DNA of 64,000 bases from a virus: positions 1-64,000 of IMG/VR virus record IMGVR_UViG_3300025645_000067, one strand, 5' to 3'. The notes beneath the pieces were generated by a model that worked only from the letters and a program-made list of their open reading frames with translations, made no database searches and was not told the origin of the DNA. The position numbers and the translations under genes were made by a program. Numbering within the stretch: the stretch's first letter is position 1; each line of letters opens with the position of its first letter. Positions 21,465 to 29,744 of this stretch are shown in pieces.

Positions 21465-22945
21465 AATTAGTAATTGGAAATGTAAAAAGTAGGGCAATAC
21501 TAGGAGGTAATGACCTAGTATTAAAGTTGGATAAGGAATTGAAAAAATATCTAAGAGTTAGAAGAGATGGGTATGATAGGTCACAAGCTTATAGGGAGCA
21601 TAGATGGGATGGTTATACTAGTTTGGTAACTTCTAAATGGGAGTTCGCTACAGGTTTCGTACCCAATGTGCTAAATTTAGCAAAAAGTCTAGGATGCTCC
21701 ATAACAATAGGGGATGAGCGAATTAATTTACCGACATTTGTAAAAGAGCCTGTTTTAGGTATAGGTAACGATGAGGGTTGGGAATTGAGAGACTACCAAT
21801 TAGAGGCAGTACAAGCAGTAAATAATTTTATTGATGTGGAAGGTGTAAAATTATATTTTCCTAGAGGTATACTAGATGCAGCCACAAATGCAGGTAAGAC
21901 CTCTATTATAGCAGGATTGTTAAATAATTTAGAGGAGTTCAACTGCTTGTATTTAGTAGATAGGCAAGTAAATTTTACAGGTACTTACCATTTTTTTAAT
22001 CAATTGTATGATGTTGGGATAATCTGCTCCACCGCTTTAGCTAGGGAATGTGGTAAGACAGGTAAAGAGAATTACCAGCCTACTAGTGAATTTACTTTAG
22101 CTATGATTGGTACTATTAAAGGACACCTACCCAAAGCTAATTTCCTAAAGTATATGAATAAGAAAACAGTAGTTATTGTAGATGAAGCTCATAGAGGAGC
22201 ATCCGATACCTACATAAAAGTTTTGAGGAAAATTAATGCAGGTATGAGAATTTTTATGTCAGGTACTTCTATGGATATAAAGAGTAAGTATAAGAAACTT
22301 ATGCTAGTGGCTCAGTCAGGTACAAAATTAGCTACAATTGAAAACAAGGAATTAATTGATAAAGGAGTATCCCTACCTCCAATTGTTAACATTTATTTGA
22401 ATGATAGTCATGTATTTGCGCAAGAATACCACTCTAATTATAAGAGTAACCTAGTTTATTCTGATCCTAGGATGGTTACAGTAATAGAAGATTTGAAAAA
22501 AGACTCAGATGGTGTAGTAGTTGTAGTAAAATTTCTAGAGCATGGACAGTTATATTATGATGCTATTTGTCAAGTGTTGGGAGCAGAGAACGTAGAATTT
22601 ATTCATGGTAGTGATAAGCAGAGGTTTGAAAAGATACAGGATTTTAAAGACAAGAAATTTCCTGTAATTGTATCCACCTCAGTACTTCAAGAATCTGCCA
22701 ATGTGCCAAGGATAAGAAAAATATGGTTTTTGGCAGGAGGTAAGGACGTAGTAGCAATTAAGCAATGGTATGGCAGGAGTGCTAGAGAGGATGGAGAAAA
22801 TGACCATGTAGTATTTAATGATTTTTTCGATGGTTACGATGTTTTAGCAAAACATTCTAGAATAAGGATTAAAGCCTTAAAAAAACAAGGCTTTGATATT
22901 AATTTTCATTATGAGTGTAATGCTCACTTCACACCTACAAAATGA
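21461..22945 (+). CDS. superfamily 2 DNA helicase (UvsW-like)
   Basis: 494 residues. After an N-terminal 100-residue domain (REHRWDGYTSLV, as in UvsW-like proteins), the Q-like motif LRDYQLEAV begins near 109. Walker A is ATNAGKTS at 141-148 and the DEAH box lies at 241-244. A SAT-like motif reads FMSGTS near 265-270. The second RecA lobe has VIVSTSVLQESANVPRI and QWYGRSARE (arginine fingers). Such helicases remodel forks and branched recombination intermediates. Overlaps with both neighbours show one operon. Confidence 0.87.
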   Translation: MKLVIGNVKSRAILGGNDLVLKLDKELKKYLRVRRDGYDRSQAYREHRWDGYTSLVTSKWEFATGFVPNVLNLAKSLGCSITIGDERINLPTFVKEPVLGIGNDEGWELRDYQLEAVQAVNNFIDVEGVKLYFPRGILDAATNAGKTSIIAGLLNNLEEFNCLYLVDRQVNFTGTYHFFNQLYDVGIICSTALARECGKTGKENYQPTSEFTLAMIGTIKGHLPKANFLKYMNKKTVVIVDEAHRGASDTYIKVLRKINAGMRIFMSGTSMDIKSKYKKLMLVAQSGTKLATIENKELIDKGVSLPPIVNIYLNDSHVFAQEYHSNYKSNLVYSDPRMVTVIEDLKKDSDGVVVVVKFLEHGQLYYDAICQVLGAENVEFIHGSDKQRFEKIQDFKDKKFPVIVSTSVLQESANVPRIRKIWFLAGGKDVVAIKQWYGRSAREDGENDHVVFNDFFDGYDVLAKHSRIRIKALKKQGFDINFHYECNAHFTPTK

Positions 22946-23481
22946 TGTACCCTAAACCTAAGAAGTCGGAAAAGAAGAAGCCTAAACCTATCAGAAAAAA
23001 ATCTAATAAGGTAGCAGTTAGGGATAAGAAGATGAATGAAGTAAAAAGACAAGTAAGATTAGAAAGAACTGAGTTTGGTTGTGAAGGTACAGGAGTTACA
23101 AATGAGAAGTTAGAAGTTAGTCACACCTTATCCATACGTAGAAGAGAAGATTTAGCTTGCGACCCAAATAATATGCTATTGGTTACTAGAGACGTACACC
23201 TAAAAATAGAATCTTGGGATATAGTAGGTTTGAAATGTGAAGATAAGATAAGAGAGTACGTATTAGAGCATGATGAGGAGTATTATAAGGAGATGGAGCA
23301 CAAGCAGAAAAGAGCCTATATTATAATTGAAAAGCTCCACCGCTACACCACCAATGGATTAACCTTTAATCATTATAAGGATTGTAAGGCAGGTTTAATA
23401 CTAATTGTAGACTTAGAAAATTTAAGTGTTTTAAATTTGGATGGTGAGGTACAAAAGTTATCTCACAAAATAAGTACCTAA
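22942..23481 (+). CDS. HNH-type nuclease-like protein
   Basis: 179 residues with a very basic N-terminus (KPKKSEKKKPKPIRKK). The middle part LEVSHTLSIRR, then DLACDPNNMLLV and TRDVHLKIE fits the HNH beta-beta-alpha metal pattern: His, then Asn, then His. The second half has no recognised domain. It could resolve recombination structures or be a selfish endonuclease. It shares a four-base overlap with the UvsW-like gene and ends before a promoter. Confidence 0.6.
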   Translation: MMYPKPKKSEKKKPKPIRKKSNKVAVRDKKMNEVKRQVRLERTEFGCEGTGVTNEKLEVSHTLSIRRREDLACDPNNMLLVTRDVHLKIESWDIVGLKCEDKIREYVLEHDEEYYKEMEHKQKRAYIIIEKLHRYTTNGLTFNHYKDCKAGLILIVDLENLSVLNLDGEVQKLSHKIST

Positions 23482-23506
23482 AAGCGGAAATTAACTATGA
23501 AAAAAC

Positions 23507-23538
23507 TTTTTATAACTATAAAATATCCCTATCTTTAC
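23507..23538 (+). promoter_or_regulatory. early-type promoter upstream of the polymerase operon
   Basis: TTTTTATAACTATAAAATAT at 23507, then CCC and TATCTTTAC at 23530-23538, followed by ATCAACAAATAAAAA. It matches the repeated early promoter except in the spacer. The ATG of the next gene is only 23 bases behind the box. Confidence 0.75.
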
Positions 23539-23560
23539 ATCAACAAATAAAAATCTAATA

Positions 23561-23980
23561 ATGAGCAGAAAAAAACGAGAAAGTAAAACTAATGTAGATT
23601 TGTTAGTACCTGTAACTGATTATAAAGACGATGGTAGTTGTTTCGGTAAGATGTGGAATATGAAAAATACTACTTGTAGTAGTTGTGCTGATAGGATATT
23701 ATGCGGTGTACATTTCCAAAACAATATAAAGAAAGTCATAAGTAAAAAAGAATCTCAAAAAAAGTTTATTGACCTTGAATGTTTTGACTCTATACCCCTA
23801 GCAAAAATTAAAAGTTTGTTGGTTAAACATTCTGGGCAATATTCCCAAAGTGATTTGTTACAGTTAATTTTAGCTAAAAGTAAATCTAAGAATAAGCGTC
23901 TAGCGAATGCTTATATCAAAAAGAATTTTTATACTACTAATGAATTTAAGGTTATAAATGAATTAATTGTAAAACTGTAA
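23561..23980 (+). CDS. cysteine-containing hypothetical protein
   Basis: 139 residues. Residues about 27-50 read GSCFGKMWNMKNTTC, SSCADRILCGVHF, a four-cysteine pattern I recall in small phage proteins near replication genes. It may bind zinc. The remainder is helical and basic. It is two bases from the polymerase N-half gene and should share its message. Confidence 0.6.
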   Translation: MSRKKRESKTNVDLLVPVTDYKDDGSCFGKMWNMKNTTCSSCADRILCGVHFQNNIKKVISKKESQKKFIDLECFDSIPLAKIKSLLVKHSGQYSQSDLLQLILAKSKSKNKRLANAYIKKNFYTTNEFKVINELIVKL

Positions 23981-23982
23981 AA

Positions 23983-26220
23983 ATGAAGAATAAGGATTGT
24001 ACGTTTTGTACTCGCTATCAAAAATGTAATGTAGTTTGCCAAATACCTCCATTTAAAGAGTCAGAAGTATTGATGATTTTAGGTGATTCTCCATCTAAGG
24101 AATCAGATAATGGACTTTCCTTTATGAGTGGTAAATATGAAGTATTGAAATCAGTATTAAAACAGGTATTAAAAGTAGATTTTGACAAGATTTATTTTAC
24201 TCATGCTGTTAAATGTTATGATTCTGACATTATTACAGATACCCAAATAAAAGCTTGTAATGATTATTTAGCGGAGGAGATAAATTTAATAAAACCTAAA
24301 GTAATTTTAACCTTAGGAAAAACTGCTACTTTAGCCCTGTTGGAAGAGCAAGATTTAAAAGGGGCTACCTTCAATAAAGTAGTAGGTAAGAAATACCATC
24401 AGATTGATAATATCACTAAGTTAGAATTTACTATTATCCCTATCTATTCCCCTAAGTATATTTCTTATAATAAAGGGGCATTGAAGAAGTGGGCAAAAGA
24501 TATTTATACTGCCTACAATTTAGCGACCGATACCAAGGTAATTTATGAGCAGACCAAAATACAAGTAGTAGATACACCAGAGCTACTAAACCAGCTAATA
24601 GCTTATACTAAACTTAGTGGGTGGATGTCACATGATTTTGAAACTACAGGACTCAATACCTTTGCAGATGATTTTAAATTAACCTGTTTTAGTTTATCAT
24701 TCCAGCATGGAAGTAGTTGGGTAATACCTCTCCACCATAAAGATTCCCCAATATTAGAAAATTACAAAGAGTATTTAGAAGTAATCAATAAAGAATTACT
24801 CCAAGACCCAAATGTAATTAAGATAGCTCATAATATCCAATACGAAAAAGATTGTTGGGCTACAGTAGGAGTAAAATCTTTTAAGGGTAGGATTATGGAT
24901 ACCATGTTACAGCACTACCTATTGTACAATGATAAGCCTCATGGTTTGAAGATGATTATTCCTACTTATTTTCCAGAATACGATGGTTATGATGTGGAAG
25001 TAAATAAGCATAATTGGGATAATTTGCCTTATGATGTATTAATAAATTATTGTGGTATTGATTCCGACCTTACGTTAAGATTGGCGGTACAATTTGAAAA
25101 TGAGTTACTACAGCAACCTAGGCTATACGCTATTTTCCGTAACCTTCTTATGCCAGCGTTGCATACTTATTGGACAGCCCACAATGGAGGTATTGATATT
25201 GATGTGGATTATTTAGATAATGCGATTATAGAAGTAGATAAATTAATATCTACACAAGAAGGTATCTTAAGAGAAATTCCTACTGTGTATAAATATGACT
25301 TACATAGGGCAGAAAAAGAGCAGGAGGCATTTATAAAATCGTTGGAGAGTAAATACAAAGTAGCGGAGCTTAAATGGGTGGAAAGTACAGATAAGATGCG
25401 AGCGGAAGAAAAGGGTAAGATACAAGATTGGTACGAATCTCAATTTAATAAAGGTATTGACGATGATGTTTTAGAGGATAAACGTAAGGCTAAATTATCC
25501 AAACTAGAAGAAAAATTATGTAAGCGTATTGAAGGTTCAGTAAGGATGAATAAATACTTGAAGCAGATAGCGGACATTAGAGCAGGATTAATAGAACCTA
25601 TTGAGCCTTTAAATTTCGGCTCACATACCCAATTAGGGGGCTTACTTTATGACAAGCAGGGGTTTGGTATGAAAAAACCAATTGACTGGAAAACAGGTAA
25701 GGAGGGAGGTACAGGTGTAGCGATACTAAAAGATTTTGAAGGGGTAGAAATAGAGGAGTTTGTAGGGAGTCTTTTATTATTAAGGTCACTAAGGAAAACT
25801 CAGTCCACCTACTTAAGAGGCATCCATAAAGTTTTAGATAAAGATAATAAAGTACATCCATCTTTTTTACTTCATGGTACAAGCACAGGTAGGTTATCTT
25901 GTGTAACTAAAGACACTTTATTGAAAACTGATATAGGTCTAATTGCCATTGGTGATTTAATACCAGATGATTATGGGATAGTAGAATTAGATAATGAAAT
26001 CAATGTTTTAACTCATACGGGGGAATATCAAAAAATAACTCACGGTATAAATAAGGGGTACGAGCAGATGTATGAGGTAGAGTTAGAGAATGATGCTACA
26101 ATAGAATGTACTGAGGAACATAGATTTTTAACTAACGAGGGATGGTTAACTCTGAAAAGTATTTTATCTTTGCGTTCAAAACGTACCATAAAGATAAAAT
26201 ATGAAATTAACGACATTTAA
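23983..26220 (+). CDS. DNA polymerase family A, N-terminal half, fused to N-intein
   Basis: 745 residues. Residues about 5-175 are a family 4 uracil-DNA glycosylase-like domain: cysteines C6, C9, C15, C19, then ILGDSPSKESDNGLSFMSG and FTHAVKCYDSD, as in SPO1 polymerase. The proofreading exonuclease starts at D218/E220 (SHDFETTGL), with HNIQYEKD and NYCGIDSDL as Exo II and III. The thumb region runs to HGTSTGRLS. At residue 640 the polymerase stops being polymerase and an intein begins with Cys. The frame ends 106 residues later without the palm. The gene cannot make an active polymerase alone; it needs trans-splicing to the product of 27133-28158. An endonuclease gene starts 20 bases before its stop. 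Confidence 0.92.
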   Translation: MKNKDCTFCTRYQKCNVVCQIPPFKESEVLMILGDSPSKESDNGLSFMSGKYEVLKSVLKQVLKVDFDKIYFTHAVKCYDSDIITDTQIKACNDYLAEEINLIKPKVILTLGKTATLALLEEQDLKGATFNKVVGKKYHQIDNITKLEFTIIPIYSPKYISYNKGALKKWAKDIYTAYNLATDTKVIYEQTKIQVVDTPELLNQLIAYTKLSGWMSHDFETTGLNTFADDFKLTCFSLSFQHGSSWVIPLHHKDSPILENYKEYLEVINKELLQDPNVIKIAHNIQYEKDCWATVGVKSFKGRIMDTMLQHYLLYNDKPHGLKMIIPTYFPEYDGYDVEVNKHNWDNLPYDVLINYCGIDSDLTLRLAVQFENELLQQPRLYAIFRNLLMPALHTYWTAHNGGIDIDVDYLDNAIIEVDKLISTQEGILREIPTVYKYDLHRAEKEQEAFIKSLESKYKVAELKWVESTDKMRAEEKGKIQDWYESQFNKGIDDDVLEDKRKAKLSKLEEKLCKRIEGSVRMNKYLKQIADIRAGLIEPIEPLNFGSHTQLGGLLYDKQGFGMKKPIDWKTGKEGGTGVAILKDFEGVEIEEFVGSLLLLRSLRKTQSTYLRGIHKVLDKDNKVHPSFLLHGTSTGRLSCVTKDTLLKTDIGLIAIGDLIPDDYGIVELDNEINVLTHTGEYQKITHGINKGYEQMYEVELENDATIECTEEHRFLTNEGWLTLKSILSLRSKRTIKIKYEINDI
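25900..26217 (+). other. split intein, N-terminal half
   Basis: 106 residues fused to the polymerase after TGRLS. Block A is CVTKDTLLKTDIGLIAIGDL, starting with the catalytic Cys. Block B is the segment with MYEVELENDATIECTEEHRF, including the TxxH motif (T-E-E-H). It ends with KSILSLRSKRTIKIKYE and a stop. Size fits natural N-inteins (about 100 residues). Confidence 0.92.
26165..26172 (+). promoter_or_regulatory. possible internal promoter for the endonuclease gene
   Basis: TATCTTTG inside the N-intein coding part is an exact -7 consensus match, 28 bases before the endonuclease ATG. No good -33 box is visible at the right distance. It could let the endonuclease be expressed separately. Chance occurrence is quite possible. 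Confidence 0.3.
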
Positions 26221-27178
26221 AAAATTCGGTGTAGATGGGGATCCTAAGAGATTTATATCTATCATAACTAAGGAGGTATTCGATTATTATTTCCTAGAGT
26301 CAGATTACACTAGAGAGGATTTTAGATTAAAATTAAAAGTTTCTAATCGCACCTTTAATAATAGTTATTGGTATCATTATACAAGAGAAGAGAGGGTAGT
26401 ATTTGCAGGAAGAAAAATATCAAAATCCCAAAAAAGAAGGAATAGTAATGCGGTTAATACAGGAAAACCTAGAAAACTATTAGATAAGGAGAAATTAATT
26501 TACTATTTAATCGAAAATAATAGGTCAGTTGAGTGGGTAGCTAAAAAGTTAGTGTGCGCTCCGCAGACAGTTAGAAAGAATATTGATTATTATAAATTAG
26601 ATGTTATAGACACTAAAAATTTACCTTATTTCTTAGGACGGTCTGAATTATTAGATTTACAAAAACTAGATGAGTTTTTCGGTACGAACTTACTACATGA
26701 ATTTAAACAAACTACTAGAGACGTACAAAGTATAGAGGATTACTGTTTTCTTATAAATGATTCTTTAGAAGATTTGAGAATTATAATGAAGAAGATTAAG
26801 AAGAATAATAGAAGTTACGCTAGAGATAATAATATACCGTTTACCAAATTAATGCAAGCAGGGAGTATATTAAATCATAATGTAGGTAATGCTTTTAAGG
26901 ACTTAGGTTATGATTTAGAATTTGAGTATGAATTAAAGGGTAAATTTTACGATATAAGGTTAATAGGCTATAATATTCTAATTGAGGTAGATTCAAGATA
27001 CTATCACAATACACCAAACCAATTAGCTAATGATAAATACAAAACGACTTTAGCAAAAAATGAAGGATTTTATTTAGTAAGATTATTTTCTGAAAAAGAG
27101 AAATATCCAACAATAGTAAAAAAAGTTAAATTATGTTTAAAGAACTTAGTATCAAACGGATTACTCCAACCCAAATAA
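26201..27178 (+). CDS. Vsr/DUF559-like homing endonuclease embedded in the fractured polymerase locus
   Basis: 325 residues. The C-terminal part is a PD-(D/E)XK/Vsr-like nuclease: FYDIRLIGYNILIEVDSRYY then HN, with likely active residues D251, E262, D264 and H269, and a C-terminal strand with FYLVRLFSE. Residues about 93-130 look like a helix-turn-helix (NNRSVEWVAKKLVCAPQTV), and the N-terminus may hold another. It overlaps the N-intein gene by 20 bases and the C-intein gene by 46, in a different frame from both. It should cut polymerase genes lacking the insertion and so spread the split arrangement. This fits the EDxHD-type endonucleases described with fractured genes. Not an intein-fused enzyme: it has its own start and stop. 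Confidence 0.8.
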   Translation: MKLTTFKKFGVDGDPKRFISIITKEVFDYYFLESDYTREDFRLKLKVSNRTFNNSYWYHYTREERVVFAGRKISKSQKRRNSNAVNTGKPRKLLDKEKLIYYLIENNRSVEWVAKKLVCAPQTVRKNIDYYKLDVIDTKNLPYFLGRSELLDLQKLDEFFGTNLLHEFKQTTRDVQSIEDYCFLINDSLEDLRIIMKKIKKNNRSYARDNNIPFTKLMQAGSILNHNVGNAFKDLGYDLEFEYELKGKFYDIRLIGYNILIEVDSRYYHNTPNQLANDKYKTTLAKNEGFYLVRLFSEKEKYPTIVKKVKLCLKNLVSNGLLQPK

Positions 27179-27246
27179 AACAAGTTTGCGATATAACAGT
27201 TGATGTTGACCATTCTTACGTAGGTAACGGTTTTGTGAATCATAAC
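27133..27246 (+). other. split intein, C-terminal half
   Basis: 38 residues. Block F is VCDITVDVDHSYVGNGF, and block G is VNHN followed by Cys39, so the penultimate His, terminal Asn and +1 Cys nucleophile are all present. Typical length for a natural C-intein. It starts with its own ATG inside the 3' end of the endonuclease gene. Confidence 0.92.
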
Positions 27247-28158
27247 TGTGTGAATCCAAATGTGCAAAATATAACGCAACCCGACCGAATTAAGAACCCT
27301 ATAGCCAAGAGTGCTGCCACTCACGTAAAAAAGATATTTGCAGTACCTAAAGGTTATACATGGGTACAATGTGACTATTCCCAATTAGAATTAAGATTGA
27401 TAGCTTGGTATTCCCAATGTAAATACATGCTAGATGCTTATGATAAGGATATTGATTTACATTCACTCACAGCAGCAGATGTAGCAGGTATAAGTTTAGA
27501 AGAGTTTTTCACATGGGATAAGAAGAAAAGAAAGTTAGCTAGATTCCAAGCCAAGGCGGTAAATTTCGGATGGAATTATGGACAATCTCCCAAAGGTTTC
27601 CAAGAGTATGCTAAAAATAATTATGGTTTGGAGTTTACTTTAGCCTATTGTGAGGAGTTAAGGGAAATTTACTTCGATAAACGACCCGAAATATTAAGTT
27701 ACCACGATTTATATTTAGCTAAGGCTAATCAATTTAAATATGTGCGTACTAGGTTCGGTAGTAAGATACATTTGGAAGATATTGATAGTTGGGAGAAATT
27801 TAAGGTGGGTAGTGCGGAGAGATTGGCTATTAATGCCCCTATACAAGGCTCAGGAGGGCAAATAAATACTTTTGCTGCCTTACAGATACAAAAATATTTA
27901 AATCCTTCCACACGCTTTATATTGAGCGTACACGATAGTAATAACTATTATATCAAAAATGAATATTTGGATGAGGAGATAGGTAAAATAAAATACTTAT
28001 CTGAAAATTTGCCTATAGAGGAATATTTTGGAGTAACTTTTGACTCTACAGATAAAAAGAGGGGGGTAAAATTGAAAGTGGACATCGAAACAACCACTAC
28101 CACGTGGAAGGATTTACAAGAATTACCAAAAGATTATAAGTATCAAAATATTTTTTAA
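27133..28158 (+). CDS. DNA polymerase family A, C-terminal half, preceded by C-intein
   Basis: 341 residues. Residues 1-38 are the C-intein; from Cys39 the polymerase resumes (CVNPNVQNITQPDR). Motif A is CDYSQLELR at 80-88, motif B RKLARFQAKAVNFGWNYG at 133-150 and motif C SVHDS at 265-269, so all catalytic residues of the palm and fingers are present. A TAA six bases upstream in the same frame (27127-27129) shows that this gene has its own start. Joined to the N-half it gives about 942 residues. It needs the N-half because it lacks thumb and exonuclease. Confidence 0.92.
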   Translation: MFKELSIKRITPTQIKQVCDITVDVDHSYVGNGFVNHNCVNPNVQNITQPDRIKNPIAKSAATHVKKIFAVPKGYTWVQCDYSQLELRLIAWYSQCKYMLDAYDKDIDLHSLTAADVAGISLEEFFTWDKKKRKLARFQAKAVNFGWNYGQSPKGFQEYAKNNYGLEFTLAYCEELREIYFDKRPEILSYHDLYLAKANQFKYVRTRFGSKIHLEDIDSWEKFKVGSAERLAINAPIQGSGGQINTFAALQIQKYLNPSTRFILSVHDSNNYYIKNEYLDEEIGKIKYLSENLPIEEYFGVTFDSTDKKRGVKLKVDIETTTTTWKDLQELPKDYKYQNIF

Positions 28159-28193
28159 CTGTATTATTTTTTAACTGTAAAAACTGTATTATT

Positions 28194-29132
28194 ATGGGTT
28201 TAGATTGGAATGCTTTAGAAAAATTAAGTAAAGAAGTAGAAAAAGATGCTAAGGGAGCATCGGGTAGTATTATTGCTGAGTGGGCAATCCTAAAAGCAGG
28301 GGAAGAAGTAGCAATAAAATTGTTACCTCCTACCGATGGTATGAATGGGTCTTTCTTCCAAAAGAAAATGACTTACAAAATTGGAGGGAAGTACTGTACT
28401 AGTAAGGCAAGTTTTGGAGATAGTTGTATTATCGCCGAAACTATTGCAGACTTCGGTAATTTGAATGACCCAGATGTAGACAAATTGATGGACAACTGGA
28501 AAGTATTCTCTAGACGACCGCAAGTCACCTACTTGCTACCTGCTTTGTTATTAAAAGCGGATGGTGACACCTACACCGTTAATGAGCCTATCATTTTAGA
28601 ATTGAAACCAGACACTTTACAGGCTATTTTATTGATTGTTTCCAATCCTAAAATGCGGAGAAAATGTGGAAATGATGATTCTATTATGAGTAGAGAACGT
28701 GGGTATCCAGTAATCTTGACACCGAAAGGGAAAAAGAAATTATTGGTTACTAACGACATCGAACCTTTTGACACTAGTGGAGAAGAATTCGAGAAGTACT
28801 ACGAGAAGCCACCGAATGTATTAAGATTTATTTATGCTCAGATGAAAAGTGATGCTCACTTAGAATCTATTGTAGCTAACTTCTTTGATGAAGAGGATAT
28901 TATTGACGATGACGGAAGTACTAAAAAAGAGTACTTGGATAGATTGGCGGCAATAATCGAAGCGGCTGCACCAGAGGGAGAAGAGGAGGAGAAAGAGGAG
29001 GAGGATACACCACCAGTTAAGAAGAGAAAAACTACTAGGAGAGTTAAGAAAGTTTTGGAGGGTAAAACTCTGCCAGACACTAAGGGTAAAACTAGGAATT
29101 TGATGGATGATGTTGAAAACTTAGACGATTAG
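28194..29132 (+). CDS. single-stranded DNA-binding protein (gp32-like)
   Basis: 312 residues. The layout fits T4 gp32-type proteins: a short basic N-terminus (LDWNALEKLSKEVEKDAKG), a central OB-like core with AGEEVAIKLLPPTDGMNGSF, and an acidic C-terminal tail. The tail includes EGEEEEKEEEDTPP, a basic patch (KKRKTTRRVKK) and the end DDVENLDD. It would coat ssDNA at forks and recombination sites and bind partners by its acidic end. It follows the polymerase C-half by 35 bases. The core motifs are weak, so the call rests on tail, size and position. Confidence 0.7.
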   Translation: MGLDWNALEKLSKEVEKDAKGASGSIIAEWAILKAGEEVAIKLLPPTDGMNGSFFQKKMTYKIGGKYCTSKASFGDSCIIAETIADFGNLNDPDVDKLMDNWKVFSRRPQVTYLLPALLLKADGDTYTVNEPIILELKPDTLQAILLIVSNPKMRRKCGNDDSIMSRERGYPVILTPKGKKKLLVTNDIEPFDTSGEEFEKYYEKPPNVLRFIYAQMKSDAHLESIVANFFDEEDIIDDDGSTKKEYLDRLAAIIEAAAPEGEEEEKEEEDTPPVKKRKTTRRVKKVLEGKTLPDTKGKTRNLMDDVENLDD

Positions 29133-29135
29133 ATT

Positions 29136-29744
29136 ATGGCATCAGGTATGGAGAAAGAAATAATCCTACCTGTTCAATTAAAGCAGGTGTTAAGATTAAC
29201 AACTAATGAAACTTTTGTAGCTTGTAAGGTACTTTTAGAAAAAGGTACGCTAGGCATAACAGGACAAAAGAATTTATTTAAATTGTTAGAACAATCTGAA
29301 ACACTTGCTTTACTTCCTGCTAAAAGTAAAGTACTTAGTAGGTATATCAATAAGATGAAAGATGATGAGGGAAATATACAAGCCATTTTGAAACCTATCA
29401 GATATAAATTATCAGATGCGCAGCGTAGGTTTTATTTTGGAGTTTGTTGTATAACGGTAATGAGTTGGTATAAGAACAATCAAGGAGAGCGTATTACAAA
29501 GGATGAGGTTTATGCTATGGATTTAATAAGTTATGGTACGAAACCTGTTATTAAATCCATACTAGACCCAACCAAAGGAAAGAGGGTGGATATACTAGTA
29601 ATGGAAGGTAAAACCTTATCACAAATGAATACTTTAGAGGGAACGGACTTTTTAGAACACGTTCTCAATAAGTGGGCAAAAGTAGGGTGTTACATTCCAG
29701 AACCTAGAAAACATAATTTCATAACTGAATTTTTAGACGATTAG
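29136..29744 (+). CDS. hypothetical recombination/replication accessory protein
   Basis: 202 residues. The central part (YKLSDAQRRFYFGVCCITVM, then SWYKNN) recalls small phage proteins of recombination modules that carry an 'x-LS-x-QRR-x-Y' pattern, but I cannot name the family with certainty. It is three bases behind the SSB gene, and both end in an acidic LDD tail. It may work with the SSB or the SbcCD pair downstream. Confidence 0.6.
   Translation: MASGMEKEIILPVQLKQVLRLTTNETFVACKVLLEKGTLGITGQKNLFKLLEQSETLALLPAKSKVLSRYINKMKDDEGNIQAILKPIRYKLSDAQRRFYFGVCCITVMSWYKNNQGERITKDEVYAMDLISYGTKPVIKSILDPTKGKRVDILVMEGKTLSQMNTLEGTDFLEHVLNKWAKVGCYIPEPRKHNFITEFLDD

Follow-up and report, generated by a model that had tools for sequence, protein, structure and literature searches.

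A family A DNA polymerase gene, encoding a UDG domain, a 3′–5′ exonuclease and PolA, lies broken at TGRLS/C at positions 23983–28158 of the window, by which we mean the whole stretch of DNA analysed, 64,000 nt of IMG/VR virus record IMGVR_UViG_3300025645_000067; all coordinates of the locus are positions in it. We consider it very probable that a homing element, composed of a split intein and an EDxHD endonuclease gene, interrupts the only polymerase gene detected in this phage, that trans-splicing restores the enzyme, and, with less certainty, that the arrangement descends from a cis-splicing intein (cis-intein) overlapped by its endonuclease gene. The locus consists of three open reading frames (ORFs) on the + strand, 23983–26220, 26201–27178 and 27133–28158, with the following parts, in which IntN and IntC are the N-terminal and C-terminal halves of the intein.

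23983–25899, + strand: N-extein, 639 aa, with UDG (aa 30–174), 3′–5′ exonuclease (aa 194–375) and the N-terminal part of PolA up to TGRLS (Pfam PF03167, PF01612, PF00476).
25900–26217, + strand: IntN, 106 aa, with Cys1, block A CVTKDT and block B TEEHRF (PF14890, solved inteins, alignment with inteins at the same site).
26218–26220, + strand: stop codon closing the IntN ORF.
26201–26220, + strand: overlap of 20 nt between the endonuclease start and the end of the IntN ORF (ORF coordinates).
26201–27178, + strand: free-standing gene for a predicted EDxHD (Vsr-like) homing endonuclease, 325 aa (alignment with loci L035 and L132, AlphaFold and Foldseek matches 3r3p and 1vsr).
27133–27178, + strand: overlap of 46 nt between the endonuclease end and the IntC start (ORF coordinates).
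27133–27246, + strand: IntC, 38 aa, with blocks F and G (DITVDVDHSY...GFVNHN; PF14890, alignment).
27247–28155, + strand: C-extein, 303 aa, with the +1 Cys, VNPNVQN and then the PolA motifs (PF00476, 1.1e-44, alignment).

A first reading of this DNA by a model that saw only the letters and their ORFs (the sequence-only reading) had proposed that the polymerase frame breaks after TGRLS into IntN, and that a second gene opens with IntC and continues with CVNPNVQNI; the ORFs and the domain searches bear this out. Pfam detects UDG (1.8e-17), DNA_pol_A_exo1 (3.3e-15) and DNA_pol_A (8.6e-13) in the first ORF, the DNA_pol_A profile running up to position 123, and in the third ORF the same profile (1.1e-44) resumes at position 124, so that no residue is lost or doubled at the break. 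Motifs A (DYSQLELR), B (AKAVNFGWNYG) and C (VHDS) are intact in the C-extein by alignment, leaving the palm and fingers motifs of the joined polymerase complete, and the predicted spliced product (639 + 303 = 942 aa) has the length that had been anticipated. The interruption measures 1.35 kb. A second IMG/VR contig, 3300007231_000025, is identical to the window record over 11,241 bp, although both sequences may derive from one population; because this contig exists, a one-off assembly error is unlikely. No further PolA, and no PolB, was found in the 66.9-kb virus record, which may be incomplete; a second complete polymerase gene is what the sequence-only reading had named as evidence against itself.

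Both intein halves are recognisable. When the whole record was searched with PF14890 (Intein_splicing), matches were obtained at 25996–26148 (7.8e-7) and at 27103–27246 (5.8e-5, below the family cut-off), and IntN also resembles the solved DnaE and gp41-1 inteins (best 5.7e-6). All of the splicing residues that had been listed from the letters alone are present, namely Cys1, TEEH in block B, the terminal His-Asn and the +1 Cys, and across eight aligned IntNs Cys1 and the block-B Thr and His are invariant. IntN and IntC share one reading frame, from which the endonuclease ORF is offset into the +1 frame. Might the two halves instead form a non-covalent, two-subunit polymerase that has no need of splicing? 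There is a precedent in the Aeh1 ribonucleotide reductase, an endonuclease-split enzyme reported to be active as two peptides (reference 8 of PMC10448857). Here, however, each half retains its splicing residues and intein blocks intact, and unspliced halves would keep 106 + 38 extra residues within the conserved TGRLS...PNxQN polymerase motif. We therefore regard the two-subunit explanation as improbable, and trans-splicing of the two halves as the better account of the locus.

The 325-aa protein encoded between the halves contains a helix-turn-helix (approximately aa 95–131) and a nuclease domain (approximately aa 236–298; ILIEVDSRYYHN...NDK), whose catalytic motif IEVD...H...DK aligns with those of the endonucleases at loci L132 and L048. 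With an AlphaFold model of the protein, in which the nuclease domain has pLDDT values mostly of 63–88 and a core at approximately 73–88, the best Foldseek match in the PDB was 3r3p (prob 1.00, TMt 0.60, E 0.011), the catalytic domain of the EDxHD prototype I-Bth0305I, and the Vsr structure 1vsr was also among the matches. The model thus points to an EDxHD endonuclease with a Vsr-like fold, the type that had been suggested for a gene of this kind between polymerase halves. A two-sequence profile of the endonuclease gave no match against the PDB. The DNA-binding parts of this protein and of the L035 endonuclease, which is encoded out of frame in a cis-intein at the same site, are homologous (39% over 77 aa, E 3e-8).

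Dassa et al. in 2009 reportedly described conserved enzymes broken by split inteins, with a free-standing and often Vsr-like endonuclease gene between the halves, an arrangement known as fractured genes. In the window, too, a replication or repair enzyme is broken into two ORFs at one point, the splicing residues are intact, and a free-standing endonuclease ORF lies between the halves in a different frame, features of sequence that support classing the locus as a fractured gene. What sets this locus apart is that PolA is fused to UDG, and that the endonuclease gene overlaps both halves and stands in the +1 phase of overlapping cis-inteins at the same site; the UDG domain, the overlaps of 20 and 46 nt and the +1 phase to intein halves that share one frame had not figured in the sequence-only reading. 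These overlaps also bear on whether a cis-intein might be made from one mRNA through two ribosomal frameshifts, from IntN into the endonuclease and from there into IntC. By eye, the second overlap contains a T-TTA-AAG heptamer in the right phase. Such a route would require two opposite programmed shifts, however, with no known signal at the first overlap, and IntC can start at an ATG of its own, whose upstream signal compares well enough with those of most genes in this phage. Upstream signals are weak throughout this phage, the endonuclease start ranking 11th and the IntC start 17th of 61. We judge the frameshift route very improbable and separate translation of the halves preferable.

The insertion point coincides with the conserved TGRLS(S)xxPNxQN codons of PolA, and the proposal that these codons are the target is strengthened by what other genomes carry there. 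Rhodobacter phage RcKickapoo (L005) has a cis-intein with an in-frame HNH endonuclease at the same PolA position, whereas the site is empty in the near-identical RcMenchie (L006), a ready intein-plus/minus pair for a homing test. Scanning viral contigs by pattern uncovered many diverse inteins at this position; DNA patterns for HNxxNPNxQN and its variants were far more productive for this purpose than protein scans, and scans with single proteins (the endonuclease and each polymerase half) returned no relative beyond the identical contig. PolA-like genes on bacterial contigs L180, L183, L185 and L186 have inteins at the same site with no endonuclease seen. Matches at L012, L013, L016, L019, L029, L042 and L043 were discarded as chance pattern matches, and L157, L159 and L183, flagged by a script, are cis mini-inteins with short upstream ORFs. 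We also set aside L168 (~6285, reverse strand), a PolA mini-intein whose IntN and IntC lie side by side but in different frames, no endonuclease being present, and which is either a frameshifted mini-intein or minimal split, or a sequencing error. In L017 and L040, the same PolA contains a second intein further upstream, ending ...ANGFATHN/CFNATYDKS.

HNH genes related to those of the PolA inteins sit in breaks of PolA within the conserved TGRLSSxxPNxQN stretch, as found in phages of Acinetobacter, Providencia, Leptolyngbya and Vibrio and recorded for cultured phages at L196–L199, some of the records annotating a joined coding sequence or an intron link. These interruptions in T7-like and other phages share the HNH lineage and the polymerase codons with the PolA inteins but differ in having no intein and, in some records, annotated RNA splicing. 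That HNH relatives occupy annotated PolA introns elsewhere raises the question of whether a group I intron, or else a sequencing error or gene decay, might take the place of a split intein in the window. No Rfam intron family was detected in 22500–29500 at E up to 0.5, although Rfam likewise gave no hit for the interruptions of L197–L199, and the polymerase ends at the break bear intein sequence rather than intron sequence. The 49 stops in the intein frame exceed what a one-base error would explain, the second contig is identical and the PolA motifs are intact; an assembly error is rejected by that contig and by the many stops. Of the explanations considered, an intron, error or decay is the least probable, and we retain the split intein.

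Most of the endonuclease-bearing cis-inteins found at this site carry the endonuclease outside the intein's frame. At 43 loci (34 distinct at 90% identity) the endonuclease occupies the +1 frame, and no stop interrupts the intein frame across it; examples are L021, L022, L026, L027, L033, L036, L039, L044, L050–L059, L132 and L035, among others. Among the distinct cases, 32 encode HNH endonucleases, four of which were scanned and matched PF13392 at 1e-11 to 3e-13, and the remaining two (L035 and L132) encode EDxHD-like ones. Compared with shuffles that preserve the endonuclease protein and codon usage, the overlapping loci have no stops in the intein frame where typically about 3–14 are expected, the third frame has the expected number, and HNH homologues outside these inteins (L061–L074, L115) show no stop depletion. 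When 22 HNH loci are compared with one another, their endonuclease frames have an amino-acid identity of 0.451, whereas the intein frame and the third frame both stand at 0.285, the former with 0 stops and the latter with 316; the endonuclease protein is thus conserved, while the intein frame is held open and is otherwise free. In the +1 phase a suitable choice of codons always suffices to avoid stops (no T-ending codon before certain A/G-starting codons), and the attainable minimum for +1-frame genes is 0.

The endonuclease of the window is in the same +1 phase as these overlapping cases, but the intein frame through its gene is not open, the 49 stops comparing with 43.4 expected. The constraint is therefore gone, and the intein can act only as two pieces, in trans. 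A second fractured PolA, L136 (8612–12859), is broken at the same site with a GIY-YIG endonuclease gene between its halves, for which the minimum number of stops in its own −1 phase is 3. The inteins of the window and L136 group together (FastTree 0.955), and a clade of these two with L132, a cis-intein with an out-of-frame EDxHD endonuclease, has support of 94.2 (SH-aLRT) and 96 (UFBoot), and the split forms nest among cis-inteins with out-of-frame endonucleases. The GC content is 0.40–0.68 for the overlapping cases, 0.34 for the window locus and 0.26 for L136. Read most simply, these patterns would mean that split inteins descended from overlapping cis-inteins in places where AT-richness made it costly to keep the intein frame open.

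The alternative order of events, which concerns the evolutionary route only, is that split inteins came first, that endonucleases were inserted later, and that the overlapping cis-inteins are a separate development. In its favour, L136 (GIY-YIG) and the window locus (EDxHD) carry unrelated endonucleases within one split-intein clade, which means that endonuclease swapping is possible in the split context. It sits less well with the position of the fractured inteins inside the clade of out-of-frame-endonuclease cis-inteins, beside the cis EDxHD case L132 (94.2/96), and with the homology and shared +1 phase of the window endonuclease and the out-of-frame endonuclease of L035. We consider a split-first origin unlikely, though a more serious contender than any of the other rivals, and favour descent from an overlapping cis-intein. 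Several points nevertheless weigh against this account as a whole. The intein tree was built on 130 columns, composition could draw the window and L136 together because both are AT-rich, and fractured PolAs at this site number only two, in one of which the GIY-YIG endonuclease lies in another frame and was therefore replaced or acquired separately. In addition, the AlphaFold model of the endonuclease is of low confidence overall (mean pLDDT 52.7), its best Foldseek E value is only 0.011, and the virus record may be incomplete.

From the anatomy, splicing residues, endonuclease family, site sharing, frame phase, stop statistics and intein-tree placement read in the sequences, we infer splicing, cutting and homing as follows, the direction of evolution being less certain than the rest. 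The interruption of the only DNA polymerase gene detected in the phage would be a mobile homing element that comprises the split intein and the EDxHD endonuclease gene. The polymerase halves would be translated separately, IntN and IntC would associate, and trans-splicing, through attack by Cys1, TxxH, Asn cyclisation and Cys+1, would yield the 942-residue UDG-exonuclease-PolA. During co-infection, polymerase alleles that lack the intein would be cleaved by the endonuclease at the TGRLS(S)xxPNxQN codons, and repair would then copy the entire interruption into the cut allele. The ancestor was most likely a cis-splicing PolA intein with an endonuclease in the overlapping +1 frame; once its halves were able to act in trans, the intein frame would have been free to gain stops, producing an obligately split intein. 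The phage that carries the element resembles a myovirus, its replication module being of the DnaB-primase-UvsW-SbcCD kind. A small HNH-like gene upstream of the polymerase, at 22942–23481 (phrog_8048, E 2.7e-4), is a possible further free-standing endonuclease.

Cyanobacterial DnaE is a replicative polymerase that relies on a split intein. In Pseudomonas phage MIJ3, an intein splits PolB, and an endonuclease gene lies between the parts (PMC6892783), so that MIJ3 resembles the window locus in combining a replicative phage polymerase, a split intein and an intervening endonuclease, and differs from it in polymerase family (B), endonuclease type (HNH) and site. The sequence-only reading had singled out a replicative polymerase dependent on trans-splicing as a notable case; the split-intein PolA stands, but with these two precedents the dependence is less surprising. 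In phage methylases, an out-of-frame HNH insertion described in 2025 as the 'ShiLan domain', which is not an intein and is thought to be unspliced (PMC11855218), likewise hides an endonuclease in another frame of a host ORF without closing that ORF, whereas in the PolA overlap cases it is a true intein that is overlapped. Overlapping endonucleases in actinophage inteins may already be covered by a preprint cited there for a 'non-canonical architecture' (10.1101/2025.01.02.630785). The fractured-gene class itself being known already, what seems to be new is the proposed route from overlapping to split inteins.

The PolA case adds a compact natural split pair (106 + 38 aa, Cys+1) that is worth testing, and this one site shows a series that comprises the empty site, a cis-intein with an in-frame HNH, a cis-intein with an out-of-frame endonuclease, and a split intein with a separate endonuclease. 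More generally, we see about an even chance that cis-inteins overlapped by a +1-frame homing endonuclease can give rise to fractured genes and natural split inteins. GC-richer phages would retain the dual-coded cis-intein, because the right codons can in every case keep the +1 frame free of stops, while AT-rich intein frames would fill with stops and force action in trans. With the series at this site, in a tree that nests the split forms among the overlapping ones, the origin of fractured genes and split inteins becomes directly testable, in that loss of the constraint on the intein frame should be harmless only where the halves can complement each other in trans.
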